A stretch of 64,000 bases of DNA from Rhizobiales bacterium Y(2018) (GTDB lineage: Bacteria > Pseudomonadota > Alphaproteobacteria > Rhizobiales > Aestuariivirgaceae), in assembly GCA_005502925.1 (NCBI GenBank), contig SCPD01000005.1:1-64000 (forward strand), written 5' to 3'. The notes under the pieces are model-generated. The model searched no databases. It saw only the letters and a list, made by a program, of their open reading frames with translations, and was not told the DNA's origin. Shown here one piece after another: positions 3,180 to 29,762 of the stretch (positions within the stretch are counted from its first letter, which is position 1; every line of letters begins with the position of its first letter). Both the position numbers and the translations under genes were made by a program.

Positions 3180-4595
3180 TTAGGCCGGGATAACACGACA
3201 TTCGATCAACCGTCTCCGTGCTTCGCGCAAGGCTACCACCACCGCGTCATTGGCGAAACGAGGGCTATCTTCCGCACTTTCACCCACGGCCACGTCCTCA
3301 AGCGAGGTGGGCACGACACGACCATTCCAGTCGACGATCGACAGCGAATCTTTTGGCCACACAATACCCCGCGATGAAACATAGCGCGCATACAAGTTTG
3401 GGAAGCATTCGATCAAGTTAGGGGGTGCATAAAGCTTCTTCTTCGCGCCCTCTGCGACGAGTCTTCCTAATCTTTCTATCGCCGAAATGTGCACCGACTC
3501 ACCAATAACGAAATGGCTTCTGTCGTGGCTTACTACCTTTTCTCGCCATCGGACGACAGGTACCAGATTTCCGATTGATCGAACGGCGCGGGCCCGCAGC
3601 TTGAATTTCAATGTCCGTGAGTCGTGCTGAACACTGAGCTCGCTCTTTGGCAGAAAGCTGTTGAAGGCATCATTCGAAACCGGAAAATCCGGGAAGTACT
3701 GCCTCAGCCGTTTGACCATCCAGTCGAGGCTGATGTCATCGATGCCCCTGACAACCAATCTGTTGCGATCGTGCTCGTTGTAATAACCACCGCCGATGTC
3801 CGAGTGTACGCCGGGAAACCAGACCTGCTCCACGATTGCGTTGACGGACTTATATTTATTGCGCCGCCAAACACCCGCTGGAAACTCGGCACGGCACTCG
3901 TCGATGGCCAACGCGTGAAGATTCAGGTCTACAATGGGCGACAACTCAATATCGTGAAACTCGTATCGCGCGCGATTGACCAGATTGAGTAGTGTAAGCG
4001 GAACACCCAGCGCGCCCACCGTGTCGAAAATCGCGAGACACGACACCCGAGTCTTGTTTCGAGAATGAATGTATCTGTCGAGAAAAATTCGATCCCCCGA
4101 AAGGCGATCATTTGGGCGCTGTCGGTAGAAACGCCACGCTTTCTCTTCATACTCCGCTGTGCAGTATTCCTCTTTAAGGAGTCCTGAAGAGCCTATCAAG
4201 CCGACCAATGATCTCGCAGTAAATGCACCTCTGGAGAATCCATAGATAAATATCTCGTCACCTTCTCGATATTTTGCACAGAGGAAACGATATGCACGAC
4301 GAATATTTAGTTCCAACCCTCTCCCTGTCAAACCTCCCAACACCCGATCTATCGCCGGCCCAGTGCCGACCCCGCGTTCGTAGAAAATTACGTATTCATA
4401 ATCTGTCGACCGAATAGCACCGAACTCAGTTTGCTTGTCGTTTAACTCTCTAACCAATTCAATTGTGTCAGGATACTTTGGTCTGGCTATGCTTTTGCTC
4501 ACGATATCTCGTAGGCGCACGACATTCGAGTCACGATCCACGCGAAAGGGGTCGTTCCAGGTACCATCAAGGAAAACGAAGAGGCGGCGTCTCAC
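3180..4595 (-). CDS. DUF2235 alpha/beta-hydrolase, Tle1-like phospholipase domain
   Basis: The protein has 471 residues. The family start motif FLDGTWND lies at residues 8-15, the nucleophile elbow GFSRGA at 119-124 (Ser121), and FDTVGALG at 190-197. PGVHSDIGGGY (from 261) supplies His264 and Asp266, typical of the DUF2235/T6SS Tle1-like catalytic domain that cleaves phospholipids. No signal peptide or VgrG/PAAR part is fused. Base use is visibly AT-richer than in the flanking genes. It is the last gene of a three-gene minus-strand operon behind two small exported proteins, a layout like an effector with immunity proteins. The lipase role rests on motifs; the secretion route is unknown. Confidence 0.8.
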   Translation of the reverse strand: MRRRLFVFLDGTWNDPFRVDRDSNVVRLRDIVSKSIARPKYPDTIELVRELNDKQTEFGAIRSTDYEYVIFYERGVGTGPAIDRVLGGLTGRGLELNIRRAYRFLCAKYREGDEIFIYGFSRGAFTARSLVGLIGSSGLLKEEYCTAEYEEKAWRFYRQRPNDRLSGDRIFLDRYIHSRNKTRVSCLAIFDTVGALGVPLTLLNLVNRARYEFHDIELSPIVDLNLHALAIDECRAEFPAGVWRRNKYKSVNAIVEQVWFPGVHSDIGGGYYNEHDRNRLVVRGIDDISLDWMVKRLRQYFPDFPVSNDAFNSFLPKSELSVQHDSRTLKFKLRARAVRSIGNLVPVVRWREKVVSHDRSHFVIGESVHISAIERLGRLVAEGAKKKLYAPPNLIECFPNLYARYVSSRGIVWPKDSLSIVDWNGRVVPTSLEDVAVGESAEDSPRFANDAVVVALREARRRLIECRVIPA

Positions 4596-9756: not shown

Positions 9757-10593
9757 TTAGCGCGCGCGTACTCCGCCGCGCGCCAAACGTTTGACAGCTT
9801 GCGCCGTGAGCGGGCCGGCGAGATGGGTGAGCTTCGCCTCGATCTCGCGCGCTTCCTCGAACATCCAGGTGACGATATTGGCGCAGCGTTCCGGCGTCAT
9901 GCGGCTGGTGATGGCGCCGACGCCGATTGCCGCCACCGCGTCGCCGTTGGCGCCGCGTATCGGCACGCCGAGCGCCGTCATGCCGGGCGCCACGCGGCCG
10001 GGATTGAGCGCGAAGCCCTTGCGCCGCGTCTCCTCGACGAATTCGAAGAGCTCGCTCGAACCGAAGCCCCAATTCGCCTTGACCGCCGCCGCATTGACGG
10101 CGATGGCGCGGCTCACAAATTCGTCGCTCTGGAAAGCGAGCAGCACCAGACTGCCGGCGCCGACGCCCAGCGGCCGGCGATCACCGACATCGAGAGTCAG
10201 CGTCTTGATCGGATAGTCGCCCTCGAAACGTTCGATGCAGATCGATTCATAGTCGCGCCGGATCGACATATAGATCGTGTCGGCGGTGCGTTCGGTCAGT
10301 CTCGCGAGTGAGGCATAGGCGACATCGCGCAAGCCGAAGCGATTGGCGGCGATGGCGCCGAAATGCGCGAGCTCCATGCCGAGGAAATAAGTAGCCGAGC
10401 TTTCATCCTGCTCGAGGAGACCGACCTGCACGAGGGCGCCCAGAAAGCGGTGCGCGGTGGACCGGCTCAAGCCGGTGGCTTCCGCCACATCGGCGAGTTT
10501 GGCGCCGGAGGGCCCCTTGGCGGCGACGACGCGCAAGGTCATCGTCGCTCTTTCGAGGCTCTGCATGCCTTGCAAGCTTTCCTTCTGGCGCAT
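9757..10593 (-). CDS. IclR-family transcriptional regulator
   Basis: The protein has about 278 residues. The N-terminal winged helix-turn-helix (LADVAEATGLSRSTAHRFLG) is followed by the IclR effector domain (ALGVPIRGANGDAVAAIGVG). It is the last gene of the long minus-strand catabolic operon, 58 bases after the E2 gene, and probably senses its substrate or an intermediate (inference). GTG 10602 and ATG 10566 are alternative starts. A paired repeat with a TCCCAT-TTA-ATGGGA palindrome in front of the operon (17731-17767) is the best candidate operator. Confidence 0.8.
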   Translation of the reverse strand: MRQKESLQGMQSLERATMTLRVVAAKGPSGAKLADVAEATGLSRSTAHRFLGALVQVGLLEQDESSATYFLGMELAHFGAIAANRFGLRDVAYASLARLTERTADTIYMSIRRDYESICIERFEGDYPIKTLTLDVGDRRPLGVGAGSLVLLAFQSDEFVSRAIAVNAAAVKANWGFGSSELFEFVEETRRKGFALNPGRVAPGMTALGVPIRGANGDAVAAIGVGAITSRMTPERCANIVTWMFEEAREIEAKLTHLAGPLTAQAVKRLARGGVRAR

Positions 10594-10651
10594 CGTCCTC
10601 ACGTTTTATCTCAACAACCGGTATCGACTATCGATGGCCGGGACTCTACAG

Positions 10652-11389
10652 TCAAGCACACCATGGCTCGGGCTTTCGCAAAAGCTCCGCCAGATGCGCC
10701 ATGAACTCCGATGCCGGCAGGCCGCTGATCACCCGGTGATCGAAAGTGAGGCTCGCCCCCATCACCTGGCCGACCACGATCTCCCCCTCACGCACAACCG
10801 CCGCCGCGCGCGCACGCCCCAAGGCCAGCGTGCCGCTCTGCGGTGGGTTGATGAGCGGCGTCTGCCACAAGGTGCCGGGTACGCTGCCGACATTGGACAG
10901 AGTGAAGGTGCCGCCGCGTACATCATCCAACCCAAGCCTGCCCTTGAGCGCAATCTGGGCGAGCTCGTTCGAGCATTGGGCGATCTCGGCCACACTCAGA
11001 TGGTCGACATTGCGGATCACCGGCACGATCAGATTGCCGTCGGCGAGCGCCACCGCCACGCCGATATTGATCTCGTCCAGTACGAGGATCTCTGCATCGC
11101 TCAGCGTTGCGTTGAGGAGCGGATAGACCTTCAACGCCTCGGCGACCGCCTTCAGCAGGATATGGGTGAGCGTCACCTTCTGTGGCATATCGGCGAAGCG
11201 TGTCTTGCGCAGCGCCAGCACCTGGTCGACATCGAGATCGGTGAAGACCGAAACGGCGGGCACCTGCTGATGGCTAGCCAGCAGATGATCACCGATCATC
11301 TTCTTCATGGCGACGAAGGGGATCACCTGGCGTACAGCGACGCCCTGCTTCGATCTCCGGATCGTCTCGGCGCCCAAGCTCATGCTCAC
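10652..11389 (-). CDS. stand-alone E2 acyltransferase catalytic domain of a 2-oxoacid dehydrogenase complex
   Basis: The protein has 245 residues and consists only of the E2 core; lipoyl and peripheral subunit-binding domains are absent. IPFVAMKKMIGDHLLAS, GTFTLSNVGSVPGT and FDHRVISG identify the fold. The family motif HxxxDG reads HRVISG here: the catalytic His is kept but Asp is replaced by Ser. GTG 11389 overlaps the aminotransferase stop (GTGA); ATG 11383 is an alternative. It should move an acyl group from the separate lipoyl protein (14682) to CoA, a split arrangement that is unusual for this enzyme. Confidence 0.8.
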   Translation of the reverse strand: MSMSLGAETIRRSKQGVAVRQVIPFVAMKKMIGDHLLASHQQVPAVSVFTDLDVDQVLALRKTRFADMPQKVTLTHILLKAVAEALKVYPLLNATLSDAEILVLDEINIGVAVALADGNLIVPVIRNVDHLSVAEIAQCSNELAQIALKGRLGLDDVRGGTFTLSNVGSVPGTLWQTPLINPPQSGTLALGRARAAAVVREGEIVVGQVMGASLTFDHRVISGLPASEFMAHLAELLRKPEPWCA

Positions 11390-12723
11390 ACCGTCAGCGC
11401 CTGCCGCACGTCGAGGATCGACTTGCGCATGATCGCGATGATCTCGTCGAGATCCTCCTCGCTCGAGATGAAGGGCGGCGCCAGATTGACATGATCACCA
11501 CTGACGCCGTCGATGCCGCCTTTGCCAGCCCCGACGATGAGCCCGTTGGTGAAGCAGGCATCACCGATCCGGCCCGCCACATTGAGGCCGGCCGGGAAGG
11601 GTTGGCGTGTCTTCTTGTCGGCGACGAATTCGATCCCCATGAAGAAGCCTTTGCCGCGGATGTCGCCGACCATGTCGAGCTCATAGAGCTCTTGCGCCTT
11701 CTCGAAGAAATAATGACCGAGCTGCGCCACCCGCTCCACCAACCGGTTGTCCTCGATATATTTGAGCACAGCGCTGCCGACGGCGCAGGACAATGGATTG
11801 CCGCCGAACGTATAGCCATGCGAGAAGCCGCGCCCGGTGCGGAACGGCGCGAATACTTCCTCCTTCACGATCACGGCGCCTAAGGGCGAGTAGCCGCTGG
11901 ACAGACCCTTGCCGGTGCAGATGATGTCGGGCACCACGCCCCAATGGCTGATGCCGAAATTCTTGCCCGTGCGGCCGAAGCCGGTGATCACCTCATCGAC
12001 GATCATCAAGATGTCGTAACGGTCACAGATCTCGCGGATGATCTTGAAATATTCGGGCGGTGCGGTGAGCGCCCCGCCCGCCGCCCCGACGATCGGCTCG
12101 GCGATGAAGGCGGCAATATTCTCCGGTCCCTCGCGCAGGATCATCGCCTCGAGATCAGTGGCGCAAGGGAGCCCGCATTCGGGATAGCTGCGGTCGAAGG
12201 GGCAATGATAGCAATTGCAGGCGGCGATATGCGGCATGTCCTTGAGCAGCGGCGCGAAGAGCTCACGCCTGGAGCGCATGCCGGTCATCGACAGTGAGCC
12301 CAGCGTATTGCCGTGGAAGCTGCTCCAGCGTGACACGACCTTGTATTTGGACGGCTTGCCGCGCTCGACATGATATTGGCGCACGAGCTTGAGCGCCGTC
12401 TCGGTCGCTTCCGAGCCACCCGAGCACATGAAGATCTTGGTCATGCCGGGCGGCGCGAAACGCGCAATGCGCTCGGTCAGCTCCATATGCGGCTGGTTCT
12501 TCCAGTGGAACGGATGAGCGAAACTCACCTTTTCCATCTGCCGCACCGCCGCCTCTCGGATCTCCGGCACATTGTGGCCGATGCTGACCACGCCGACCCC
12601 GCCCATGCCGTCGATGTAACGCTTACCCGAAATGTCGTAGCAGTAGATGCCGTCGGCGCGGTCGATGACCGGATTGACCGATCCGGCGCTACGGAAAAAG
12701 ATATGCTCGTCGGTGAGGCTCAT
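11386..12723 (-). CDS. class III pyridoxal-phosphate aminotransferase
   Basis: The protein has 445 residues. The fold-type I class III signature is complete: SGGSEATETALKL (101-113), IVDEVITGFGRTG with Asp243, and the PLP Lys272 in CTGKGLSSGYSPLG. A Cys-rich loop (CNCYHCPF to ECGLPC) is typical of one branch of this class. It converts a primary amine or amino acid to an aldehyde or oxoacid using a common acceptor. The start overlaps the E1 beta stop by one base (TGATG). In this operon it probably delivers the substrate of the dehydrogenase complex (inference); the amine is unknown. Confidence 0.85.
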   Translation of the reverse strand: MSLTDEHIFFRSAGSVNPVIDRADGIYCYDISGKRYIDGMGGVGVVSIGHNVPEIREAAVRQMEKVSFAHPFHWKNQPHMELTERIARFAPPGMTKIFMCSGGSEATETALKLVRQYHVERGKPSKYKVVSRWSSFHGNTLGSLSMTGMRSRRELFAPLLKDMPHIAACNCYHCPFDRSYPECGLPCATDLEAMILREGPENIAAFIAEPIVGAAGGALTAPPEYFKIIREICDRYDILMIVDEVITGFGRTGKNFGISHWGVVPDIICTGKGLSSGYSPLGAVIVKEEVFAPFRTGRGFSHGYTFGGNPLSCAVGSAVLKYIEDNRLVERVAQLGHYFFEKAQELYELDMVGDIRGKGFFMGIEFVADKKTRQPFPAGLNVAGRIGDACFTNGLIVGAGKGGIDGVSGDHVNLAPPFISSEEDLDEIIAIMRKSILDVRQALTV

Positions 12724-13703
12724 CAGCTTGACTCCGTAATGCGGCGAACCGCCTCCGTGATCGTCTGGACATTGGGCATCGCCGCGCGTGCCAGCGGCAT
12801 GGCAAAAGGTCTCGGCGTGTTCTGCAGGCCGACGCGGGCGATCTTGAGCGGCGCGTTGCCGGCAAGATCTTCGGCAATGGAGGCGGTCAGATCGGACAGC
12901 GGATCGCCTGTCTTCCAGCTTTCCGAAACGACGACGAGACGCCGCGTCTTGGCGACCGAGCGGCGCACCGTCTCGATATCCATCGGCACGATCGAGCGTG
13001 GGTCGACGACTTCGGCGGAAATGCCTTCACCGCGCAGTTGCTCGGCCGCCTTCAGCGCCTGCTGCGCCATCAAAGCAGTGGCGACGATGGTGACGTCGCT
13101 GCCCTCGCTCTTGATCTCGGCCTCTCCAAGCGGCACCACATAGTCCTCTTCCGGCACCTCCTGGCGGGCACCATGATAGAGCGCCATATGCTCGAAGAAG
13201 ACGACCGGATTGTTGTCACGCAACGCGGCTTTCATCAGTCCTTTGGCGTCACGTGGGCAGGACGGCATGGCGACCTTGATGCCCGGCACACTCGCCACCC
13301 AGGCCTGATAATCCTCGGAATGGCCACGATGCGGTCCGGCGCCATAAAGGACGCGGATGACCAGCGGCACCGAGACCGTGCCGTCTGATTTGTACCACAT
13401 GGCCGCCGCATCGCAGGCGAGCGGCGTGAGGCCCAGCCCTAAAAATTCGGCGAACATCAATTGCACGATCGGCCGCCGGCCAGCGAGCGCGGCGCCGATG
13501 CCGGCGCCGACCATGGCGCTTTCGCTGATCGGCGTCTGGATGATGCGGCGCGGCCCGAATTTCGCGCCAAGCCCCTTTGCCGAATGCATGGCGCCGTTAT
13601 AGATCGGGCCGATATCCTGGCCGAGATGGAAGATGCGCTCGTCGCGCTCCATCTCTTCGCTGATCCCCTGGATCACCGCTTCCTGAAAAGTGAGCTGGCT
13701 CAT
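12723..13703 (-). CDS. 2-oxoacid dehydrogenase E1 component, beta subunit
   Basis: The protein has 326 residues, a normal length for PdhB/AcoB/BkdAB. It carries the transketolase pyrimidine-binding domain (QTPISESAMVGAGIGAAL, VQLMFAEFLGLGL) and the C-terminal transketolase domain (VVDPRSIVPMDIETV). It pairs with the alpha subunit encoded directly upstream, whose stop overlaps this ATG by four bases. Together they decarboxylate a 2-oxoacid (or cleave acetoin) and load the acyl group on lipoate. Confidence 0.88.
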   Translation of the reverse strand: MSQLTFQEAVIQGISEEMERDERIFHLGQDIGPIYNGAMHSAKGLGAKFGPRRIIQTPISESAMVGAGIGAALAGRRPIVQLMFAEFLGLGLTPLACDAAAMWYKSDGTVSVPLVIRVLYGAGPHRGHSEDYQAWVASVPGIKVAMPSCPRDAKGLMKAALRDNNPVVFFEHMALYHGARQEVPEEDYVVPLGEAEIKSEGSDVTIVATALMAQQALKAAEQLRGEGISAEVVDPRSIVPMDIETVRRSVAKTRRLVVVSESWKTGDPLSDLTASIAEDLAGNAPLKIARVGLQNTPRPFAMPLARAAMPNVQTITEAVRRITESS

Positions 13704-14668
13704 GCCACACGCTCCAAAACCGGCGAATAGAGATCATCAGGCCCCAGCACCTCGAGCCCCGGATCAGGGTCGGCCTGAGCCTCAGCGATCGCCTGTGTGA
13801 TCTCGGCCTCAGCTGCCTTCTCGATTTCGTTGAGTTGGGCCTCGGTCATGACGCCCTGCGCCTGGAGACGTGCCTTCAGCAAGAGAAGCGGATCCTTCTT
13901 GAGCCAGGAAGCGCGCTCATCCTTCGGCTGATAGTCGTTGGGATCGGCACTGTAATGGCCACTGATGCGATAGGTCACCGCATCGATGAGCGTCGGGCCC
14001 TCGCCTGCCCGCGCCCGCGCCACCGCGCTCTGCACCGCCTGATGCATGGCGACGACGTCATTGCCTTCGACCCTGATCCCCGGCATGCCGTAGCCTTGAG
14101 CACGATCGGCAACGCTGGCGCATTTGAGCGCGTAGTCGGTGCGCGTCGACATCGCATAGCCGTTGTTCTGGCAGATATAGACGATGGGCAGCGCCAGGCA
14201 GGCGGCGAGATTGAGGCTTTCATGGAAGGCGCCGAGATTGCTGGTACCCTCGCCGAAACTCGTCACCACGACACCTTGCTTCCCGTCGAGCGACGCGGCG
14301 AGCGCGATGCCGGTCGAGATATTGAGCGGATTGCCGAGCACGCCTGAAAACATGCCGAGCGTATTAAACTGCAGCGGCAGACAGATGTCGCCGCGCACGC
14401 GCCCCCTGGAATAGGACGTGACCTTGCCGAGCACGCCGGCGATGAGGCGGCGCAGATCGGCGCCGCGCATATGGGCGGCGAGCAAGGCGCCGCGATAGTG
14501 CGGCGCGATATAGTCGCTGTCCTTGAGGCCGAAGAACGCGCCGACCACCACGCCTTCCTCACCGACGCCCGGATGGAAGCCCGGCAACTTGCCGAGCAGG
14601 CTTTCCAGCACCCGGCCCTTGGCGACGAGATGGTAGAGCGAGGTCAATAGATTGGCATCGGGCGTCAT
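13700..14668 (-). CDS. 2-oxoacid dehydrogenase E1 component, alpha subunit (TPP-binding)
   Basis: The protein has 322 residues. The thiamine-diphosphate motif is GEGTSN at 139-144 followed by QNNGYAMS at 167-174, the GDG-X26-NN pattern with Glu in place of the middle Asp. Further family segments are PHYRGALLAAHMRG and AVTYRISGHYSADPND. ATG 14668 is chosen because GAGGAGG precedes it; upstream codons overlap the lipoyl gene in another frame. The subunit is somewhat short, as in acetoin-type E1. The four-base overlap with E1 beta implies coupled translation. Confidence 0.88.
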   Translation of the reverse strand: MTPDANLLTSLYHLVAKGRVLESLLGKLPGFHPGVGEEGVVVGAFFGLKDSDYIAPHYRGALLAAHMRGADLRRLIAGVLGKVTSYSRGRVRGDICLPLQFNTLGMFSGVLGNPLNISTGIALAASLDGKQGVVVTSFGEGTSNLGAFHESLNLAACLALPIVYICQNNGYAMSTRTDYALKCASVADRAQGYGMPGIRVEGNDVVAMHQAVQSAVARARAGEGPTLIDAVTYRISGHYSADPNDYQPKDERASWLKKDPLLLLKARLQAQGVMTEAQLNEIEKAAEAEITQAIAEAQADPDPGLEVLGPDDLYSPVLERVA

Positions 14669-14681
14669 GGGCCTGGCCTCC

Positions 14682-14927
14682 TCACGCGCCGGTCTTTTCG
14701 AAGCGGGCCAGGATCGCGCCCGGCTCCACTTCCGCATCGGCCTGATGCAGGATCTCGACGAGCTTGCCGTCGATGCCGCTTTCGACCTCGACATTGACCT
14801 TCTCGCTCATCACTTCGAGCAGCACGTCCTTGGCAGACACTTGATCGCCGACCTTCTTGTGCCAGGCGATGATGGTTGCCTTGGGCACTTCCTTCCCCAG
14901 TTCCGGCAGTGGAAAGTCAACAATCAT
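14682..14927 (-). CDS. stand-alone lipoyl-carrier protein
   Basis: The 81-residue protein is exactly one lipoyl domain: FPLPELGKEVPKATIIAWH at the start, the attachment lysine Lys43 in VMSEKVNVEV, and the second half-turn repeat EILHQADAEVEPGAILARF. It lacks the E3/E1-binding domain and the acyltransferase core that normally follow; the core is a separate gene at 10652. It should be lipoylated and shuttle acyl groups between E1 and E2. It sits directly before E1 alpha with a 13-base gap. Confidence 0.85.
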   Translation of the reverse strand: MIVDFPLPELGKEVPKATIIAWHKKVGDQVSAKDVLLEVMSEKVNVEVESGIDGKLVEILHQADAEVEPGAILARFEKTGA

Positions 14928-14958
14928 CGGTCAGTCCTTCTTCTTGTCGTCATTCGTC

Positions 14959-15795
14959 TCATGAGGCGCGCGCCAGCACGGCGCTGTCGGGCAATGTCTC
15001 GCCGGTCAGCTTCTCGAAGCGCGCCAGGAGATCCGGCACACCCATCCCTGCTTTTTCCTTTTCGCTAAGATCCATGGCGATGCGGCCGCGATGCATCAGG
15101 ATCAAACGGTCGGAATGTTTTAGCGCATGGCCCATGTCATGTGTCACCATCAGCGTCGCGATGGAGCGCTGGCGTACGATCGCCTCGGTCTGCTCCATCA
15201 CCACCCGTGCCCTGGTGGGATCGAGCGCCGAGACATGTTCGTCGAGGAGGAGGAGTGCTGGATTGCGCGACGTCGCCATCGCCACCGACACGGCCTGGCG
15301 CTGGCCGCCCGACAGCGTGCCGGCCAACTGATCAAGACGGTCCTCGAGGCCCATCGAAAATTGTGCGAGCGTGTCGCGCGCCAGGTCACGCACCCGTTGG
15401 CCCGCGGCGCGTTTGAGATTGAAGCGGCGCGCCTGGCCCGCCTCGGCCAGCGCGAAATTCTCGACGATGGTGAGGGCCGAGAACACATTATGCTCGGGGT
15501 TCTGACGCACCAGCGCCACCTTGCCGGTGCGCTGCCAGGAGGGCTGCTCGGTGACGTCTTCGCCGGCGACGATGATGCGGCCGCTATCAGGCAGCTGGCT
15601 GCCGGCGATCATCGACATCAGCGTCGACTTGCCGGACCCGTTCGAGCCGACCAGCGCCACGATGGTGCCGGAGGTGATGGCGAGATTGATGCTGTCGGCG
15701 GCGATGACGAATTCGTTGCGCCCGAAACCCTTGAAGCGCTTCACGCAGTCCCTGACCTCGAGAGCCGTCTCAGGTGATGTTGACGACACGATCAT
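14959..15795 (-). CDS. ABC transporter ATP-binding protein (PF04392-associated system)
   Basis: The protein has 278 residues. Walker A is VGSNGSGKST, the signature LSGGQRQAVSV and Walker B LLLLDEHVSALDP, where His replaces the usual Pro after DE, a feature I associate from memory with the COG1101 group. A D-loop and switch His (VTHDMGH) are present. ATG 15795 overlaps the end of the permease gene by 26 bases. It energises import through the permease and binding protein encoded upstream. Confidence 0.82.
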   Translation of the reverse strand: MIVSSTSPETALEVRDCVKRFKGFGRNEFVIAADSINLAITSGTIVALVGSNGSGKSTLMSMIAGSQLPDSGRIIVAGEDVTEQPSWQRTGKVALVRQNPEHNVFSALTIVENFALAEAGQARRFNLKRAAGQRVRDLARDTLAQFSMGLEDRLDQLAGTLSGGQRQAVSVAMATSRNPALLLLDEHVSALDPTRARVVMEQTEAIVRQRSIATLMVTHDMGHALKHSDRLILMHRGRIAMDLSEKEKAGMGVPDLLARFEKLTGETLPDSAVLARAS

Positions 15796-16714
15796 TCTCC
15801 AGATATTCGAGGCGCTCACGCGCATTCTTCTTCGCCGCCTTCGTGCCCGGAATGGCGATGAGGCCCAGCCCATTGGCGCGCACAGCGATGATGCCGAATA
15901 CGACAAGCGCCGTGACCAGCTTGACGAAATAAGGCGGCAGCCCGAGCTTGAGCGCGATCGTCACCACGACGCGATAGACCAGGATGCCGAGCAGCACGCC
16001 CAGGATGGATGGGATGATCTTCGGGGTCTTGAACACGCTCATGCCGATCATCAGGGCGGCGAGCCCGACGACGATGACGCCGGTCTGGATCGATACGTCC
16101 ATGAAGCCTTGGCTCTGCACCACGAGCGCGCCCGAGGCGGCGGCGAGGCCATTGGCGATGATGAGGCCGACGATCTGGCGCGCTTCGGTACGGATGCCGA
16201 AGCTGCGCGCCGTCTGGATATTGAGACCCGAGGCGCGCATCGACAGGCCGTAATTGGTGTGCAGGAACCAGATGAGCACGAGGGCGACGAGGCCCGACGC
16301 CAGGGCGCCGACGATAATCGCCGCCCATTGGCCGGAGAAGCCCAAACCTTCGACCCAGGTGAAGATGGTTGCCTGGCTGAGCAAGGAGATATTGCCGGCG
16401 CCCATGATGGCGAGCGAGATCGACCAGGCGGCCGTCGTCATCAGGATGCCGGCGAGCAGGACATTCATGCGCAGATAGACATGGAGCAGCCCGGTGATGA
16501 GCCCGGCGATCGCACCGCCGAGAATGCCGAGCAGCAGCGCCGTCGCCGGATCGAGTCCGGCGACGAGCGCTACCGCGGTGGAGGCGCCGCCGATCCCGAA
16601 CGAGCCTTCGAGCGTCAGATCCGGAAGGCTCAGAATATTCAGGGCGAAGTAGATGCCAAGCGCCAGGGGGCCGTAGATCAGCCCGACCTGGGCGCCGATC
16701 AGCAGGATGCTCAC
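15770..16714 (-). CDS. ABC transporter permease (PF04392-associated system)
   Basis: This integral membrane protein has 314 residues and about eight to nine hydrophobic helices. It resembles the BPD-transporter type 2 fold of the COG4120 group (SILLIGAQVGLIYGPLALGI at the start, AARSFGIRTEARQIVGL-like cytoplasmic loop in the middle). The start is GTG 16714, with GAGAGG six bases upstream, 10 bases after the binding-protein gene. It forms the channel for the substrate of the catabolic operon. Confidence 0.82.
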   Translation of the reverse strand: MSILLIGAQVGLIYGPLALGIYFALNILSLPDLTLEGSFGIGGASTAVALVAGLDPATALLLGILGGAIAGLITGLLHVYLRMNVLLAGILMTTAAWSISLAIMGAGNISLLSQATIFTWVEGLGFSGQWAAIIVGALASGLVALVLIWFLHTNYGLSMRASGLNIQTARSFGIRTEARQIVGLIIANGLAAASGALVVQSQGFMDVSIQTGVIVVGLAALMIGMSVFKTPKIIPSILGVLLGILVYRVVVTIALKLGLPPYFVKLVTALVVFGIIAVRANGLGLIAIPGTKAAKKNARERLEYLENDRVVNIT

Positions 16715-16724
16715 GTGTTGCCTC

Positions 16725-17693
16725 TCAATAGGTCTTGGTGGCTTTGTCCAGCAGCTCTTGCGGGATGGTGAGGCCGAGCGACTTGGCCTGAGTCATATTG
16801 ATCTCGAAGCCGGCGGCCTTCGGCACGACGACCGGCATGGTTGCCGGGTTGCCGCCGGCCAGCACCTTCTCTACCACGTCGGCGGCGAGATTGCCGACTT
16901 CGATGTAGCTGTAGGAGCCGGAAAGAAGCCCGCCCTGGCTCACCCCTTCGGAGAGATTGCCGAAGGCCGGGATCTTGGCGTCGTTGGTGACCTTGATGAT
17001 GCCGGCGATGCCGCTCATCGTCGTCGAATCGCCCGGCATCTGGATCGCCTCGACCTTGCCGATAAGCGACTGTGCCGCTTGCGTCGTCTCACCCGCATTG
17101 GCGATCGCCGCTACGATATGATTGAGGCCGCGTTCTTTGAGATGCGCGACGGCGCGCGCCGCGAGGAAGTCGCCGGCCGGGTCACCGGCCTTGTAGATGA
17201 GGCCGACGGTCTTCATGTTCGGCAGCACCTTCATCATCGCGTCGATATCGGCTTCGACCGGGGCCGGATCGGCGACGCCGGTGAAATTCGTGCCGGGCGC
17301 CTCGAAGGAATTGATGAGGCCCGCTTCGACCGGCGTCGAAGAGCCGACGAAGACCACCGGGATCGTTGTGGTGAGCTTGCGGAAGACCTGCGCGCCGGGC
17401 GTGGCGATGGCGACGATGACGTCGCAGCCGTCGCTGACGAAGCCTTGCGCGAGGGTCAACTGGGTCGCGGCATCACCTTCTGGATTCTGCACGACCATGG
17501 CTTCGGTCGAGATGCCTTTTTTCGCCAGGCTGTCTTTGAAGCCATTCAGGATGTCGTCGATGACCGTCGCGGTCGCATATTGATTGACGCAGATTTTGGG
17601 CGCCGCGGCCTGCGCCGACGCCGTCAGAGCGGCCGAGGCCAGGAGAGCGAGGGCAAAGGCCCGGCGCGACAGGTGTGGAATGGACAGCTTCAC
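16725..17693 (-). CDS. ABC transporter substrate-binding protein, PF04392 type
   Basis: The protein has 322 residues with a Sec signal peptide (KLSIPHLSRRAFALALLASA, cleavage after AQA). The mature two-lobed binding protein shows PF04392 hallmarks: an early QYATATVIDDILNGFKDSLA, IVAIATPGAQ, IPVVFVGSSTPVEAGLI and VGLIYKAGDPAG. Members bind tryptophan or other small ligands, but most are uncharacterised. It is the first gene of the catabolic operon. GTG 17693 is chosen because AGGAGG lies six bases upstream. Confidence 0.85.
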   Translation of the reverse strand: MKLSIPHLSRRAFALALLASAALTASAQAAAPKICVNQYATATVIDDILNGFKDSLAKKGISTEAMVVQNPEGDAATQLTLAQGFVSDGCDVIVAIATPGAQVFRKLTTTIPVVFVGSSTPVEAGLINSFEAPGTNFTGVADPAPVEADIDAMMKVLPNMKTVGLIYKAGDPAGDFLAARAVAHLKERGLNHIVAAIANAGETTQAAQSLIGKVEAIQMPGDSTTMSGIAGIIKVTNDAKIPAFGNLSEGVSQGGLLSGSYSYIEVGNLAADVVEKVLAGGNPATMPVVVPKAAGFEINMTQAKSLGLTIPQELLDKATKTY

Positions 17694-17730: not shown

Positions 17731-17767
17731 GTCCCATTTAATGGGATACAAATCTATTTAATGGGAC
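17731..17767 (-). promoter_or_regulatory. paired operator-like repeat upstream of the catabolic operon
   Basis: TCCCAT-TTA-ATGGGA (17732-17746) is a perfect 15-base palindrome. Twenty bases on, ATTTAATGGGA recurs (17756-17766; the first copy starts at 17736), so the shared half lies on the same helix face. The pair lies 38 to 73 bases before the GTG of the binding-protein gene, where an operator would overlap the promoter. The IclR protein encoded at the far end of the operon is the natural candidate to bind it. Confidence 0.55.
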
Positions 17768-24823: not shown

Positions 24824-25315
24824 ATGTTGACGAAGCCCGAAATGTCACCCGACGGCGAGCGTGCGCGTGACGTCTGTAATCGCCACGGCAATCGCCCGGA
24901 TGAATTGATCGAGATCCTGCATGAAGTGCAGGAGGAGCTGGGCTTTGTGCCGGAAGCCGTCATTCCGGTGATTGCGAAGGCGATCAACCTATCCCGCGCC
25001 GAGGTCCATGGCGTCGTCACTTTCTATCATGATTTCCGCCGCGAGCCGGCCGGCCGCCATGTGGTGAAGATCTGCCGCGCCGAATCTTGCCAGTCGATGA
25101 ATGGCGAGGCTTTGTGCAGCCACGCCAAGGCCAGCCTCAAGGCCGGCTTCGGCGAAACGACCGCTGATGGCCAGGTGACGCTCGAAGCCGTCTATTGTCT
25201 TGGCAATTGCGCGCTGTCGCCGGCGATGATGGTCGACGGCCAGTTGCATGGCCGCGTCGATGCCCGGCGCTTCGACGAGATCATGGGCGAAACGCTGAGC
25301 GAGGCAGCCCAATGA
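24824..25315 (+). CDS. fdsG: NAD-dependent formate dehydrogenase gamma subunit (NuoE-like)
   Basis: The protein has 163 residues. It has the thioredoxin-like [2Fe-2S] domain of NuoE/HoxE: ligands in CRAESCQSM and in AVYCLGNCALSPA, four Cys in all. It forms an electron relay with FdsB in the cytoplasmic FdsABG complex, passing electrons from formate to NAD+. ATG 24824 has AGGAAGG eight bases upstream. The stop overlaps fdsB by four bases. Confidence 0.92.
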   Translation: MLTKPEMSPDGERARDVCNRHGNRPDELIEILHEVQEELGFVPEAVIPVIAKAINLSRAEVHGVVTFYHDFRREPAGRHVVKICRAESCQSMNGEALCSHAKASLKAGFGETTADGQVTLEAVYCLGNCALSPAMMVDGQLHGRVDARRFDEIMGETLSEAAQ

Positions 25316-26865
25316 CCCGCATCTTCGTTCCCGATGACGCGGCCGCCCTGTCAATGGGCGCCGACAAGGTCGCTTCCGCCATCAAGGCCGAGGCCCAAAA
25401 GCGCAATATCGCAGTCGAGATCGTCCGCAACGGCTCGCGCGGCATGCTTTATCTGGAGCCGCTGGTCGAAGTCGAGACGCCTCGGGGCCGTGTCGCTTAT
25501 GGACCAGTCGCGGCCAAGGATGTCGCCTCCCTCTTCGACGCAGGCTTCCTCACCGGCGGCAAGCACGCCTTGAGCCATGGCCTCACCGAGGAGATCGATT
25601 ACTTCAAGAAGCAGGAGCGCCTCACTTTCGCGCGCTGCGGCGTCATCACTCCGGTGTCGATCGAAGACTATACCGCTCATGGCGGCTATGCGGGTCTCAA
25701 GGCGGCGCTGCAGAAATCCGGCGCCGACATCGTCAAGGACGTCACCGACTCCGGCCTGCGCGGCCGCGGCGGCGCCGGCTTCCCGACCGGCATCAAATGG
25801 AAGACCGTCCACGACGCCAAGGCCGATCAGAAATATGTCTGCTGCAATGCCGATGAAGGCGACAGCGGCACCTTCGCCGACCGCATGCTGATGGAAGGCG
25901 ACCCCCTGACGCTCATCGAAGGCATGACCATTGCCGGCATAGCGACGGGCGCCACCAAGGGCCTCATTTATATACGCTCCGAATATCCCCATGCCATCGC
26001 CAAGATGAAACAGGCGATCGCCAATGCGGTCGCGGCACGTTTCCTCGGCGACAACATCCAGGGCTCGGGCAAATCCTTCACGCTGGCCGTGCGCACCGGC
26101 GCGGGCGCCTATATTTGCGGCGAAGAGACCTCGATGCTCGAAAGCCTCGAAGGCAAGCGCGGCATGGTGCGTCCGAAGCCGCCGATCCCGGCGCTCGAGG
26201 GCCTGTTCGGCAAGCCCACCGTCATCAACAACGTGCTGAGCTTCGCGGCGGTGCCGGATATCCTGGCCAAGGGGGCGGAGTTCTACAAGAATTACGGCAT
26301 GGGCCGCTCGCGCGGCACGCTGCCCTTCCAGCTCGCCGGCAATCTGAAGCGCGGCGGCCTTGTCGAGAAGGCCTTCGGCATCACCTTGCGCCAGCTCGTC
26401 GAGGATTTCGGCGGCGGCACCTATTCAGGCCGGCCGGCGCGGGCCATTCAAGTCGGCGGACCTTTGGGCTCTTATGTTCCGGCATCGCAATTCGACCTGC
26501 CGATGGACTATGAGACTTTCGCCGCCAATGGCGCGATGGTCGGCCATGGCGGCCTCGTGGTGTTCGACGACACGGTCGACATGGCGCGTCAGGCGCGTTT
26601 CGCCATGGAGTTCTGCGCCATCGAATCCTGCGGCAAGTGCACGCCCTGCCGCATTGGTGCCGTGCGCGGCGTCGAGGTGATCGATCGCATCATCGCCGGC
26701 ATCGAGCGCGACAAGAATCTGATCGTCCTCGACGATCTCTGCCAGACCATGACCGACGGATCGCTGTGCGCCATGGGCGGGCTGACGCCCATGCCGGTGC
26801 AAAGCGCGGTTAAGCATTTTCCCGAGGACTTCGACCGGCCTCCCGTGGCCAAGGCCGCAGAATAG
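25312..26865 (+). CDS. fdsB: NAD-dependent formate dehydrogenase beta subunit (NuoF-like)
   Basis: The protein has 517 residues. An N-terminal thioredoxin-like part is followed by the NuoF core: RGRGGAGFPTGIKW for FMN/NADH, CNADEGDSGTF, and GAYICGEETS. [4Fe-4S] ligands lie in ESCGKCTPCRIG plus a Cys about 40 residues on in DLCQTMTDGSLC. It binds FMN and reduces NAD+. It is coupled to fdsG by a four-base ATGA overlap and followed by fdsA after 11 bases. Confidence 0.94.
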   Translation: MTRIFVPDDAAALSMGADKVASAIKAEAQKRNIAVEIVRNGSRGMLYLEPLVEVETPRGRVAYGPVAAKDVASLFDAGFLTGGKHALSHGLTEEIDYFKKQERLTFARCGVITPVSIEDYTAHGGYAGLKAALQKSGADIVKDVTDSGLRGRGGAGFPTGIKWKTVHDAKADQKYVCCNADEGDSGTFADRMLMEGDPLTLIEGMTIAGIATGATKGLIYIRSEYPHAIAKMKQAIANAVAARFLGDNIQGSGKSFTLAVRTGAGAYICGEETSMLESLEGKRGMVRPKPPIPALEGLFGKPTVINNVLSFAAVPDILAKGAEFYKNYGMGRSRGTLPFQLAGNLKRGGLVEKAFGITLRQLVEDFGGGTYSGRPARAIQVGGPLGSYVPASQFDLPMDYETFAANGAMVGHGGLVVFDDTVDMARQARFAMEFCAIESCGKCTPCRIGAVRGVEVIDRIIAGIERDKNLIVLDDLCQTMTDGSLCAMGGLTPMPVQSAVKHFPEDFDRPPVAKAAE

Positions 26866-26876
26866 GAGAGAGCGAC

Positions 26877-29762
26877 ATGCATACGCTCATCAAGGAAATC
26901 GATTACGGCACGCCCAAATCCGAGAGCGCCAAGTTGGTGACGCTCGAGATCGACGGGCAGTCGGTCACCGTGCCGGAAGGCACCTCCATCATGCGTGCCG
27001 CGATGGAGCTCGGCACCCAGATCCCGAAACTCTGCGCCACCGATTCGATGAAGAGCTTCGGCTCCTGCCGCCTGTGCCTGGTCGAGATCGAAGGACGTAA
27101 AGGCACGCCCGCTTCCTGCACCACGCCAGTGGCGGCCGGCATCAAGGTCAAGACCCAGACCGATCACCTGGCCGATCTGCGCCGGGGCGTCATGGAACTC
27201 TATATCTCCGACCACCCGCTCGACTGCCTTACCTGTGCCGCCAATGGCGACTGCGAATTGCAGGACATGGCGGGCGCCGTGGGCCTGCGCGAAGTGCGTT
27301 ATGGCTATGAGGGCGACAATCACGTCTTCGCCAAGAACAACGGCTCGGAGAATTTCCGCTACAAGCCGAAGGACGAAAGCAATCCCTATTTCACCTTCGA
27401 TCCGGCCAAATGCATCGTCTGCTCGCGCTGCGTGCGCGCCTGCGAGGAAGTGCAAGGCACTTTCGCGCTGACCATCGACGGGCGCGGCTTCGCCTCGCAT
27501 GTCTCGGCCGGCATGGATGAGGATTTCCTCGCCTCCGAATGCGTTTCCTGCGGCGCCTGCGTGCAGGCCTGCCCGACCGCCACGCTGACCGACAAGTCGA
27601 TCATCGATAAGGGCCAGCCGGATCATTCGGTGGTGACGACCTGTGCCTATTGCGGCGTCGGCTGCTCCTTCAAGGCCGAGATGAAGGGCGATGAGGTCGT
27701 TCGCATGATGCCTTACAAGGATGGCGGCGCCAATGAAGGCCATTCCTGCGTGAAGGGCCGCTTCGCCTGGGGCTATGCGACGCATCAGGACCGCATGATG
27801 AAGCCGATGCTGCGCGAGCAGATCACCGATCCCTGGCGCGAAGTCTCCTGGGACGAGGCGATCGATTTCACCGCCCGGCGCTTCCGGGAGATCCAGGCGA
27901 AACACGGCATCGGATCGATCGGCGGCATCACCTCGTCGCGCTGCACCAATGAGGAAGTCTACGTGGTGCAGAAGATGATCCGCGCCGCCTTCCACAACAA
28001 CAATGTCGACACCTGCGCGCGCGTCTGCCATTCGCCCACCGGCTACGGGCTGCGGCAGACCTTCGGCACCTCCGCCGGCACCCAGGATTTCAAGTCGGTC
28101 GACAAGTCCGACGTGATCCTGATCATCGGCGCCAACCCGACCGATGGTCACCCCGTTTTCGCCTCGCGCATGAAGAAGCGCCTGCGCGAAGGCGCCAAGC
28201 TCATCGTCATCGATCCGCGCCGCACCGATATCGTGCGCTCGCCCCATGTCGAGGCCCAATATCATCTGCCGCTGCTGCCTGGCACCAATGTCGCGATCTT
28301 CAACGCCTTCGCCCATGTCGTGGTGACCGAGGGCCTGGTGAAGCGCGATTTCGTGGCCGAACGCTGCGAGCCTGAGGATTTCGCGCGCTGGGAGAAGTTC
28401 ATCGCCGACCCGAAGAACTCGCCGGAAGTGCTCGAGAGCATCACCGGCGTCCTGGCCGCCGATGTGCGCGCCGCCGCGCGCCTCTATGCGACGGGCGGCA
28501 ACGGCGCCATCTATTACGGCTTGGGCGTCACCGAGCACAGCCAGGGGTCGACCATGGTCATGGCCATGGCCAATCTCGCCATGGCGACCGGCAATATCGG
28601 GCGCGATGGCGTGGGCGTAAATCCCCTGCGCGGCCAGAACAATGTCCAGGGTTCCTGCGACATGGGTTCTTTCCCGCATGAATTCACCGGCTACCGCCAC
28701 ATCTCCGACAACACGGTGCGCGATCTGTTCGAGAAGGTGTGGAATGCCGAGCTCGACCCGGAGCCCGGTCTGCGTATCCCGAACATGTTCACGGCCGCCG
28801 TCGAAGGCAGCTTCAAGGGCCTCTTCGTCCAGGGCGAGGACATCGCCCAATCCGATCCCAACACCAAACACGTGAATTTGGCGCTCGAGTCGCTCGAATG
28901 CCTGGTGGTGCAGGATCTCTTCCTCAATGAGACGGCGGCCTTCGCCCATGTCTTCCTGCCCGGCACCTCCTTCCTCGAAAAGGACGGCACTTTCACCAAT
29001 GCCGAGCGCCGCATCAATCGCGTGCGTCCGGTGATGGCGCCGAAGCAGGGCATGCAGGAATGGGAGGTCATCGCGCGCATCTCGACCGCCATGGGCTATC
29101 CGATGAGCTATGCCTCGGGCGCCGAGATCATGGACGAGATCGCCCGGGTGACGCCGACCTTCTCAGGCGTCAGCTTCGAGAAGCTCGACCGGCTTGGCTC
29201 GGTGCAGTGGCCGTGCAACGACGCCGCCCCCGAAGGCACGCCGATCATGCATGTTGACAAATTCGTGCGCGGCAAGGGCCGCTTCATGGTCACCGAATTC
29301 GTGCCGACGGATGAGCGCACCAACCGCTTCTTCCCGCTGATCCTCACCACGGGCCGCATCCTCAGCCAGTACAATGTCGGCGCCCAGACGCGGCGGACCG
29401 CCAATGTCGCCTGGCACCCGGAAGACGTGCTGGAGATCCATCCGCATGATGCCGAAGTGCGCGGCATCAAGGAGGGCGCCATGGTGTCGTTGACCAGCCG
29501 CGTCGGCGCCATCACGCTGCGCGCGGTGATCGCCGATCGCATGCCGCAAGGCGTCGTCTACACCACCTTCCACCATCCGGTGACCGGCGCCAATGTGATC
29601 ACCACCGAGAATTCCGACTGGGCCACCAATTGCCCGGAATACAAGGTGACTGCCGTGCAGGTGACCCCATCCAACCAGCCGTCCGACTGGAAAGCGGAAT
29701 GGGAGCAGCGCGAGAACGAGCACAAGCGCGTGGCGATACAGCCGCTTGTCGCGGCGGAGTAA
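26877..29762 (+). CDS. fdsA: NAD-dependent formate dehydrogenase alpha subunit, molybdenum catalytic
   Basis: The protein has 961 residues and oxidises formate to CO2 at a Mo-bis-MGD centre. The N-terminal [2Fe-2S] ligands are Cys53, 64, 67 and 81. A His113-Cys117-Cys120-Cys126 cluster follows, then two ferredoxin-type [4Fe-4S] motifs (CIVCSRCVRAC, CVSCGACVQAC) and CAYCGVGC of the catalytic domain. The Mo ligand is a cysteine (Cys384 in ARVCHSPTGYG), not selenocysteine. The molydopterin-dinucleotide domain closes the protein. AGGAGAG lies before the ATG. A long antisense open frame here is a composition artefact. Confidence 0.95.
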   Translation: MHTLIKEIDYGTPKSESAKLVTLEIDGQSVTVPEGTSIMRAAMELGTQIPKLCATDSMKSFGSCRLCLVEIEGRKGTPASCTTPVAAGIKVKTQTDHLADLRRGVMELYISDHPLDCLTCAANGDCELQDMAGAVGLREVRYGYEGDNHVFAKNNGSENFRYKPKDESNPYFTFDPAKCIVCSRCVRACEEVQGTFALTIDGRGFASHVSAGMDEDFLASECVSCGACVQACPTATLTDKSIIDKGQPDHSVVTTCAYCGVGCSFKAEMKGDEVVRMMPYKDGGANEGHSCVKGRFAWGYATHQDRMMKPMLREQITDPWREVSWDEAIDFTARRFREIQAKHGIGSIGGITSSRCTNEEVYVVQKMIRAAFHNNNVDTCARVCHSPTGYGLRQTFGTSAGTQDFKSVDKSDVILIIGANPTDGHPVFASRMKKRLREGAKLIVIDPRRTDIVRSPHVEAQYHLPLLPGTNVAIFNAFAHVVVTEGLVKRDFVAERCEPEDFARWEKFIADPKNSPEVLESITGVLAADVRAAARLYATGGNGAIYYGLGVTEHSQGSTMVMAMANLAMATGNIGRDGVGVNPLRGQNNVQGSCDMGSFPHEFTGYRHISDNTVRDLFEKVWNAELDPEPGLRIPNMFTAAVEGSFKGLFVQGEDIAQSDPNTKHVNLALESLECLVVQDLFLNETAAFAHVFLPGTSFLEKDGTFTNAERRINRVRPVMAPKQGMQEWEVIARISTAMGYPMSYASGAEIMDEIARVTPTFSGVSFEKLDRLGSVQWPCNDAAPEGTPIMHVDKFVRGKGRFMVTEFVPTDERTNRFFPLILTTGRILSQYNVGAQTRRTANVAWHPEDVLEIHPHDAEVRGIKEGAMVSLTSRVGAITLRAVIADRMPQGVVYTTFHHPVTGANVITTENSDWATNCPEYKVTAVQVTPSNQPSDWKAEWEQRENEHKRVAIQPLVAAE

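Follow-up and report, generated by a model that had tools for sequence, protein, structure and literature searches.

According to the textbook view, 2-oxoacid dehydrogenases are tied to multi-domain scaffolds. In complexes of the pyruvate dehydrogenase (PDH) and branched-chain 2-oxoacid dehydrogenase (BCKDH) type, the acyltransferase E2 combines a lipoyl domain, a peripheral subunit-binding domain (PSBD) and a catalytic core in one protein, which serves alongside the dehydrogenase subunits E1 alpha and E1 beta and the lipoamide dehydrogenase E3 (LpdA). Here we describe a nine-gene operon at positions 9757–17693 (minus strand) of a 64-kb stretch of DNA from Rhizobiales bacterium Y(2018) (assembly GCA_005502925.1, contig SCPD01000005.1, positions 1–64,000; genome size 7.1 Mb), in which these parts are encoded separately. 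The whole stretch of 64,000 nucleotides is referred to below as the window. The operon has E1 alpha, E1 beta, a lipoyl domain, an E2 catalytic domain and the conserved E1 catalytic positions in common with PDH/BCKDH-type complexes, but differs from them in its separate lipoyl and core proteins, the lack of a PSBD, the lack of an E3 gene and a Ser in the DHRxxxG motif of E2.

Two further described systems are close in part. In glycine cleavage a small free lipoyl protein is served by a shared LpdA, and the carrier of the operon would work in a similar way; however, it matches the lipoyl profile PF00364 and not the H-protein profile PF01597 (E≤1), and neither a P- nor a T-protein is present among the nine genes. 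Systems of the AcoC type, for which we take model NF011457 to represent the lipoyl–alpha/beta hydrolase layout, likewise have an accessory E1 alpha/beta without a neighbouring lpdA, as at four loci of the source genome (L123, L124, L135 and L136), two of which (L135 and L136) also lack a PSBD. In these, however, the lipoyl domain is fused to an alpha/beta hydrolase and there is no PF00198 core.

Gene content of the split dehydrogenase operon

All nine open reading frames (ORFs) were found on the minus strand where the initial annotation had placed them, in the order substrate-binding protein (SBP), permease, ATPase, lipoyl protein, E1 alpha, E1 beta, class III aminotransferase, E2 core and IclR regulator. 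Both the operon-like arrangement and the Pfam matches agree with the proposal that a PF04392-type importer, a class III aminotransferase and an IclR regulator belong to one unit with the dehydrogenase genes. The accompanying description of a unit fused by overlaps holds for four of the eight junctions (permease/ATPase, E1 alpha/E1 beta, E1 beta/aminotransferase and aminotransferase/E2) and not for the other four, which have gaps of 10 bp (SBP/permease), 31 bp (ATPase/lipoyl), 13 bp (lipoyl/E1 alpha) and 49 bp (E2/IclR).

The domains of both E1 subunits, the lipoyl protein and the E2 core are near-complete. The lipoyl protein (14682–14927, minus strand) is only 81 aa long and is predicted to be a free lipoyl carrier, with a PF00364 match at 63.5 bits (1.6e-17, residues 4–75) and a putative lipoyl-lysine turn, MSEKV. 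The E2 core (10652–11389, minus strand; 245 aa) lies about 3.3 kb from the lipoyl gene and has PF00198 as its sole Pfam match (2.5e-65, residues 21–242), covering positions 5–229 of the 232 in the profile, which identifies it as an E2 catalytic domain; in its motif, DHRVISG, the His of DHRxxxG is retained together with the rest of DHR and the Gly. E1 alpha (13700–14668, minus strand; 322 aa) matches PF00676 at 3.8e-72, and E1 beta (12723–13703, minus strand; 326 aa) matches PF02779 and PF02780; both assignments were also supported by alignment. The His of the E1 alpha loop and the His and Glu of E1 beta, which we take to be catalytic, were invariant in 13 aligned E1s that included PDH and one acetoin-cluster E1. 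Thus E1 alpha/beta, a lipoyl domain and an E2 catalytic domain are all present, and a fused lipoyl–PSBD–core E2, a PSBD and an E3 gene in the same cluster are not.

The initial annotation had described the lipoyl domain and E2 core as two separate genes with no visible PSBD in either. A profile search (Pfam, E≤1, as for all window proteins) bore this out, with no PF02817 match in either the 81-aa lipoyl protein or the 245-aa E2 protein. A PSBD of 36 positions is unlikely to be hidden in these proteins, because only about 20 residues lie N-terminal to the E2 domain and 6 C-terminal to the lipoyl domain, and the profile itself works, since it picks up five PSBDs elsewhere in the genome. The proposed lack of a lipoamide dehydrogenase gene was likewise upheld: tblastn of the 64-kb window at 1e-4, with the C34 copy of LpdA from the same genome as query, found no match.

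The initial annotation had placed much weight on the missing E3 and PSBD, and the rest of the genome shifts that weight. There are two LpdA genes above the curated cut-off and nine strong PF00676 E1 loci, comprising that of the window and eight others (three weak matches at 24–32 bits were left out of this count). An lpdA neighbour is present at the 2-oxoglutarate dehydrogenase (L126) and PDH (L127) loci and was not found within the 9–14 kb around each of the other six. One of these six (L125) carries a lipoyl–PSBD–E2 protein, two (L123 and L124) have lipoyl–PSBD–hydrolase proteins beside E1, and two (L135 and L136) have lipoyl–hydrolase proteins with no PSBD match at E≤1. Accessory E1 systems without an E3 of their own, some of them also without a PSBD, are therefore common in this genome, and the special feature of the window is the separation of the lipoyl and PF00198 genes.

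The same survey showed a lipoyl–hydrolase protein in place of the E2 acyltransferase in four E1 systems of the genome (L123:6095–7726, L124:6502–7737, L135:7924–9042 and L136:3791–4918), the first of which has two lipoyl domains. At a further locus (L137:5252–7230), E1 alpha and beta are encoded, and the surrounding 14 kb yielded neither a lipoyl nor an E2 nor an lpdA gene.

Conservation and recurrence of the split arrangement

All nine genes are present in the same order in Aestuariivirga sp. YIM B02566 (L065), with 93–100 % identity by tblastn, equal lengths throughout and no stops. The lipoyl protein is 100 % identical between the two genomes. Ratios of nonsynonymous to synonymous substitution rates (Ka/Ks) between the two were in the range 0–0.145, with 0.145 for E2, 0.0 for the lipoyl protein, 0.053 for E1 alpha, 0.079 for E1 beta and 0.058 for the aminotransferase. 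Nine genes intact in a related genome at such ratios show that the arrangement is not due to chance; the operon is real and under purifying selection. As in the window, the lipoyl and E2 proteins of this relative gave no PF02817 match at E≤1.

The operon is also rare. E2 matches at 1e-42 were found in two of 69 family genomes, both of the genus of the source, which has five genomes in the set, and at 1e-44 among 385 class genomes only the source genome itself was recovered. The best match to E2 from another genome among 199 order genomes had 42 % identity. For E1 beta, a threshold of 1e-80 among 398 phylum genomes gave the source genome and 31 others, with 43–47 % identity among the matches listed; three of these were examined and had fused systems with an E3. 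A contig scan for relatives returned L065 and six E1 beta relatives at 36–45 %.

The split arrangement itself recurs, contrary to the uniqueness that the first description implied. A free lipoyl protein and a free PSBD-less E2 core beside E1 were found at seven other loci, in Shinella (L060, with the E2 core two genes further on), Paraburkholderia sprentiae (L063), Rhodococcus erythropolis pRLCBG43 (L073, where the opposite strand carries an lpdA at a distance of about 4 kb), Mameliella alba (L129), Diaphorobacter (L132) and two genomes of the same order as the source, G072 (L075) and G110 (L078:3440–9756). In the last, three more genes come after the split cluster, one lipoate-ligase-like, one for LpdA and one LipA-like, the first and third of these labels having been assigned by eye. 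The free lipoyl proteins of the split modules are 75–103 aa long. What these seven loci share with the window is the free lipoyl protein and free PSBD-less E2 core by E1; they differ from it in their other gene partners, and their E2s (five of which are in the tree described below) are not of one lineage. Since seven other loci with widely differing gene neighbourhoods have it, the combination is a repeated arrangement, although the loci were opened because they appeared split, so that no frequency follows from their number. Among the matches listed for the E2 of order genomes, seven with short ORFs were opened (one more, in G118, was left out), of which two (L075 and L078) proved to be split and the other five were truncated at the end of a contig. 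Full-length E2s were present by annotation at eight further loci (L061, L062, L117–L119, L121, L122 and L130).

On a Tritonibacter mobilis plasmid (L072), the E2 is split and the lipoyl and E2 pieces each retain a partial PSBD match, one above and one just below the Pfam cut-off; this locus is a plausible intermediate of fission. Other partial arrangements were also seen. In Azospirillum (L128) and Streptomyces (L131), E1 alpha/beta and a free lipoyl gene have ring-hydroxylating dioxygenase genes as neighbours and the stretch yielded no E2, and in Sphingobium (L133) E1 is accompanied by a free E2 core, with no lipoyl gene found nearby. No paper describing a system of split E1, free lipoyl protein and free E2 was found among the titles or abstract openings of open-licence papers, which is a weak negative. 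We regard the operon as an uncommon variant and not as a new kind of system.

The origins of the split were assessed in an E2 tree of 30 rows and an E1 alpha+beta tree of 23 rows. Eight rows were split, namely the window, L065, L060, L063, L072, L073, L075 and L078; L129, L132, L133 and the E1s of L135–L137 were absent from the trees. Five changes are required to account for the split rows on the E2 tree, and well-supported branches make four of these unavoidable; as few sufficed in 15 of 500 shuffles of the labels. Approximately unbiased (AU) tests, in which groups were named after the split loci were known and the p-values hence serve as a guide, rejected one clade for all eight split E2s (p-AU 1.75e-7), left one of the window, L065, L060, L073 and L078 doubtful (p 0.013) and did not reject one of the window, L065 and L078 (p 0.18). 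One clade for all eight was rejected for E1 as well (AU p 3e-102), although well-supported branches impose no more than two changes on that tree and as few sufficed in 56 of 500 shuffles. A single origin was thus rejected by these tests for the split E2s and for their E1s, and since one E2 clade is rejected the split E2s would have several origins. Judged from these trees, the split appears to have arisen more than once.

In the E1 tree, Rhodococcus L073 groups with the window and L065, and this grouping is supported (99/95.9). A shared origin of their E2s is weakened because the L065 and Rhodococcus E2s are only 32 % identical and lie on long, unresolved branches; that of L073 meets another long branch. 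Membership of the operon in the acetoin dehydrogenases was considered and rejected, as the acetoin-cluster E1 (L122) lies elsewhere in the tree and no acetoin or diol gene is present in the operon.

Importer, aminotransferase and candidate regulatory elements

The importer consists of an SBP of PF04392 (16725–17693, minus strand; 1.1e-55), TrpX-like and related to the solved structures 3lkv, 3lft and 6hni, a PF02653 permease (15770–16714, minus strand; 1.3e-18) and a PF00005 ATPase (14959–15789, minus strand; 2.4e-30). The ATPase ORF was scanned from 15792, and its GTG start codon at 15789 was assigned by eye from the sequence. The class III aminotransferase (11386–12723, minus strand; 445 aa) matches PF00202 at 2.6e-98.

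The three solved SBP relatives bind the aromatic alpha-amino acids Phe, Trp and Tyr (PMC6816091). In alignments with them, the window SBP has Leu at one selectivity site, as against Ala, Ala and Glu in VC_1101, SP1069 and CD0873, and at the second it has Tyr, as against Tyr, Gln and Tyr. The SBP thus has its PF04392 family and its structural relatives in common with TrpX/CD0873-type importers, but differs at one selectivity site and at two shared motif positions and falls below the NCBIfam TrpX cut-off. As those two shared positions differ, binding of an ordinary aromatic amino acid cannot be taken for granted; by comparison with the solved proteins, the ligand is probably related to Phe, Trp or Tyr and not simply one of them.

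Import of an amine had been proposed for the operon. This is doubtful, since a simple amine would be transaminated to an aldehyde and not to a 2-oxo acid, and the solved SBP relatives bind aromatic alpha-amino acids. An alpha-amino acid is the better guess, because E1 normally needs a 2-oxo acid.

The last gene (9757–10602, minus strand) encodes a regulator with both PF09339 and PF01614, and so a member of the IclR family. Upstream of the SBP gene and of the operon lies a candidate operator, a tandem palindrome-like repeat (17734–17765, minus strand) of two CCCATTAAATRG 20 bp apart. Allowing up to three mismatches, it has a single match in the 7.1-Mb genome and its reversed control has none; none of 100 shuffles of the window reached the three single-copy matches. 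The repeat is largely retained in L065. Together, the IclR protein and the repeat presumably control the operon.

Elsewhere in the window, the gene at 3180–4595 encodes a protein with PF09994, a type VI secretion system Tle1-like phospholipase domain, and has a third-position G+C content of 0.56, below that of most neighbours. At 25312–29762, a NuoF-like FMN protein is adjacent to a large molybdopterin oxidoreductase with NuoG-type iron–sulfur domains, a pair that resembles a putative nicotinamide adenine dinucleotide (NAD)-dependent formate dehydrogenase.

Proposed mechanism and alternative explanations

On balance, we lean towards the operon encoding a dismantled accessory 2-oxoacid dehydrogenase that still works and would borrow a housekeeping LpdA. 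In the proposed route, the ABC importer would take up an amino acid and the class III aminotransferase would convert it to the 2-oxo acid. As predicted from their family and conserved residues, E1 alpha/beta would then decarboxylate this with thiamine diphosphate and acylate the lipoyl group on the 81-aa carrier. The carrier may diffuse to the free E2 core, where the acyl group would pass to coenzyme A (CoA), and may then be re-oxidized with NAD by the LpdA encoded elsewhere, following the carrier logic of the H-protein in glycine cleavage. The stricter form of this reading, in which untethered E1, free lipoyl carrier, free E2 core and borrowed E3 each diffuse on their own and bacteria have come to this state from fused E2s on several independent occasions, we hold more tentatively, at slightly less than an even chance.

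Several observations weigh against the dismantled but working enzyme. The E2 motif has Ser where the other listed E2s have D or N, the exceptions being the L065 ortholog (also Ser) and L074 (Thr). The SBP has Thr for the Asp of [ST]DP[VI] and Ser for the Asn of DN, both of which its relatives share, and at 220 of 390 bits it misses the cut-off of the NCBIfam TrpX model (NF041285). The aminotransferase is above the cut-off of none of the 25 aminotransferase models listed, and there is no acyl-CoA-using gene in the operon to indicate the product. The Mameliella copy (L129) may be broken, as the gene table lists no E1 beta for it and the two halves of that gene lie in different reading frames.

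The alternative that survives best is a mixed complex, in which the E2 core or E1 would dock on the cell's PSBD-bearing E2 or on its two lipoyl–PSBD–hydrolase proteins, with E3 docking in trans. In corynebacteria, OdhA operates together with a foreign E2, and E1/E2 fusions of the OdhA kind are among the PDB matches; the genome moreover encodes five proteins with a PSBD that could take part, and two of these lack an E2 core. In the tree, a branch of 1.56 nevertheless sets the window E2 core well apart from the other E2s of the genome, which makes a mixed E2 trimer unlikely, and we regard the mixed complex as a whole as an unlikely explanation.

Less probable still is that E1 cleaves an acyloin, or uses an aldehyde that the aminotransferase has produced from an amine, so that acyl-CoA would be formed without loss of CO2. 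The sequence is compatible with such chemistry, as the acetoin-cluster E1 (L122) has the same catalytic positions, and terminal amines are common substrates of class III aminotransferases; yet Pfam indicates neither a gene for acyloin formation nor a diol gene among the nine, the window E1 is apart from L122 in the tree and the SBP relatives bind alpha-amino acids. A recent gene fission heading to decay is very improbable and was rejected as a pseudogene explanation: split genes can arise in this way, as the PSBD remnants on both Tritonibacter pieces and the two-frame E1 beta of Mameliella suggest, but neither the window nor L065 has a PSBD trace, the nine L065 genes are intact, of equal length and without stops at Ka/Ks 0–0.145, the Rhodococcus E1 sister is also split, and none of the outcomes that the initial annotation had named as fatal to its reading (a PSBD or E3 gene in the operon, or pseudogene remnants) was seen.

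For the dismantled enzyme, then, the operon points to an amino-acid catabolic route that has so far had no assignment, and split versions of this kind suggest how such complexes are taken apart for new catabolic operons. Full splits that appear to have evolved repeatedly, one of them under purifying selection, offer a direct test of the importance of tethering, channelling and E3 docking. If the untethered reading is true, swinging-arm channelling and PSBD docking would be dispensable in accessory catabolic versions of these enzymes.

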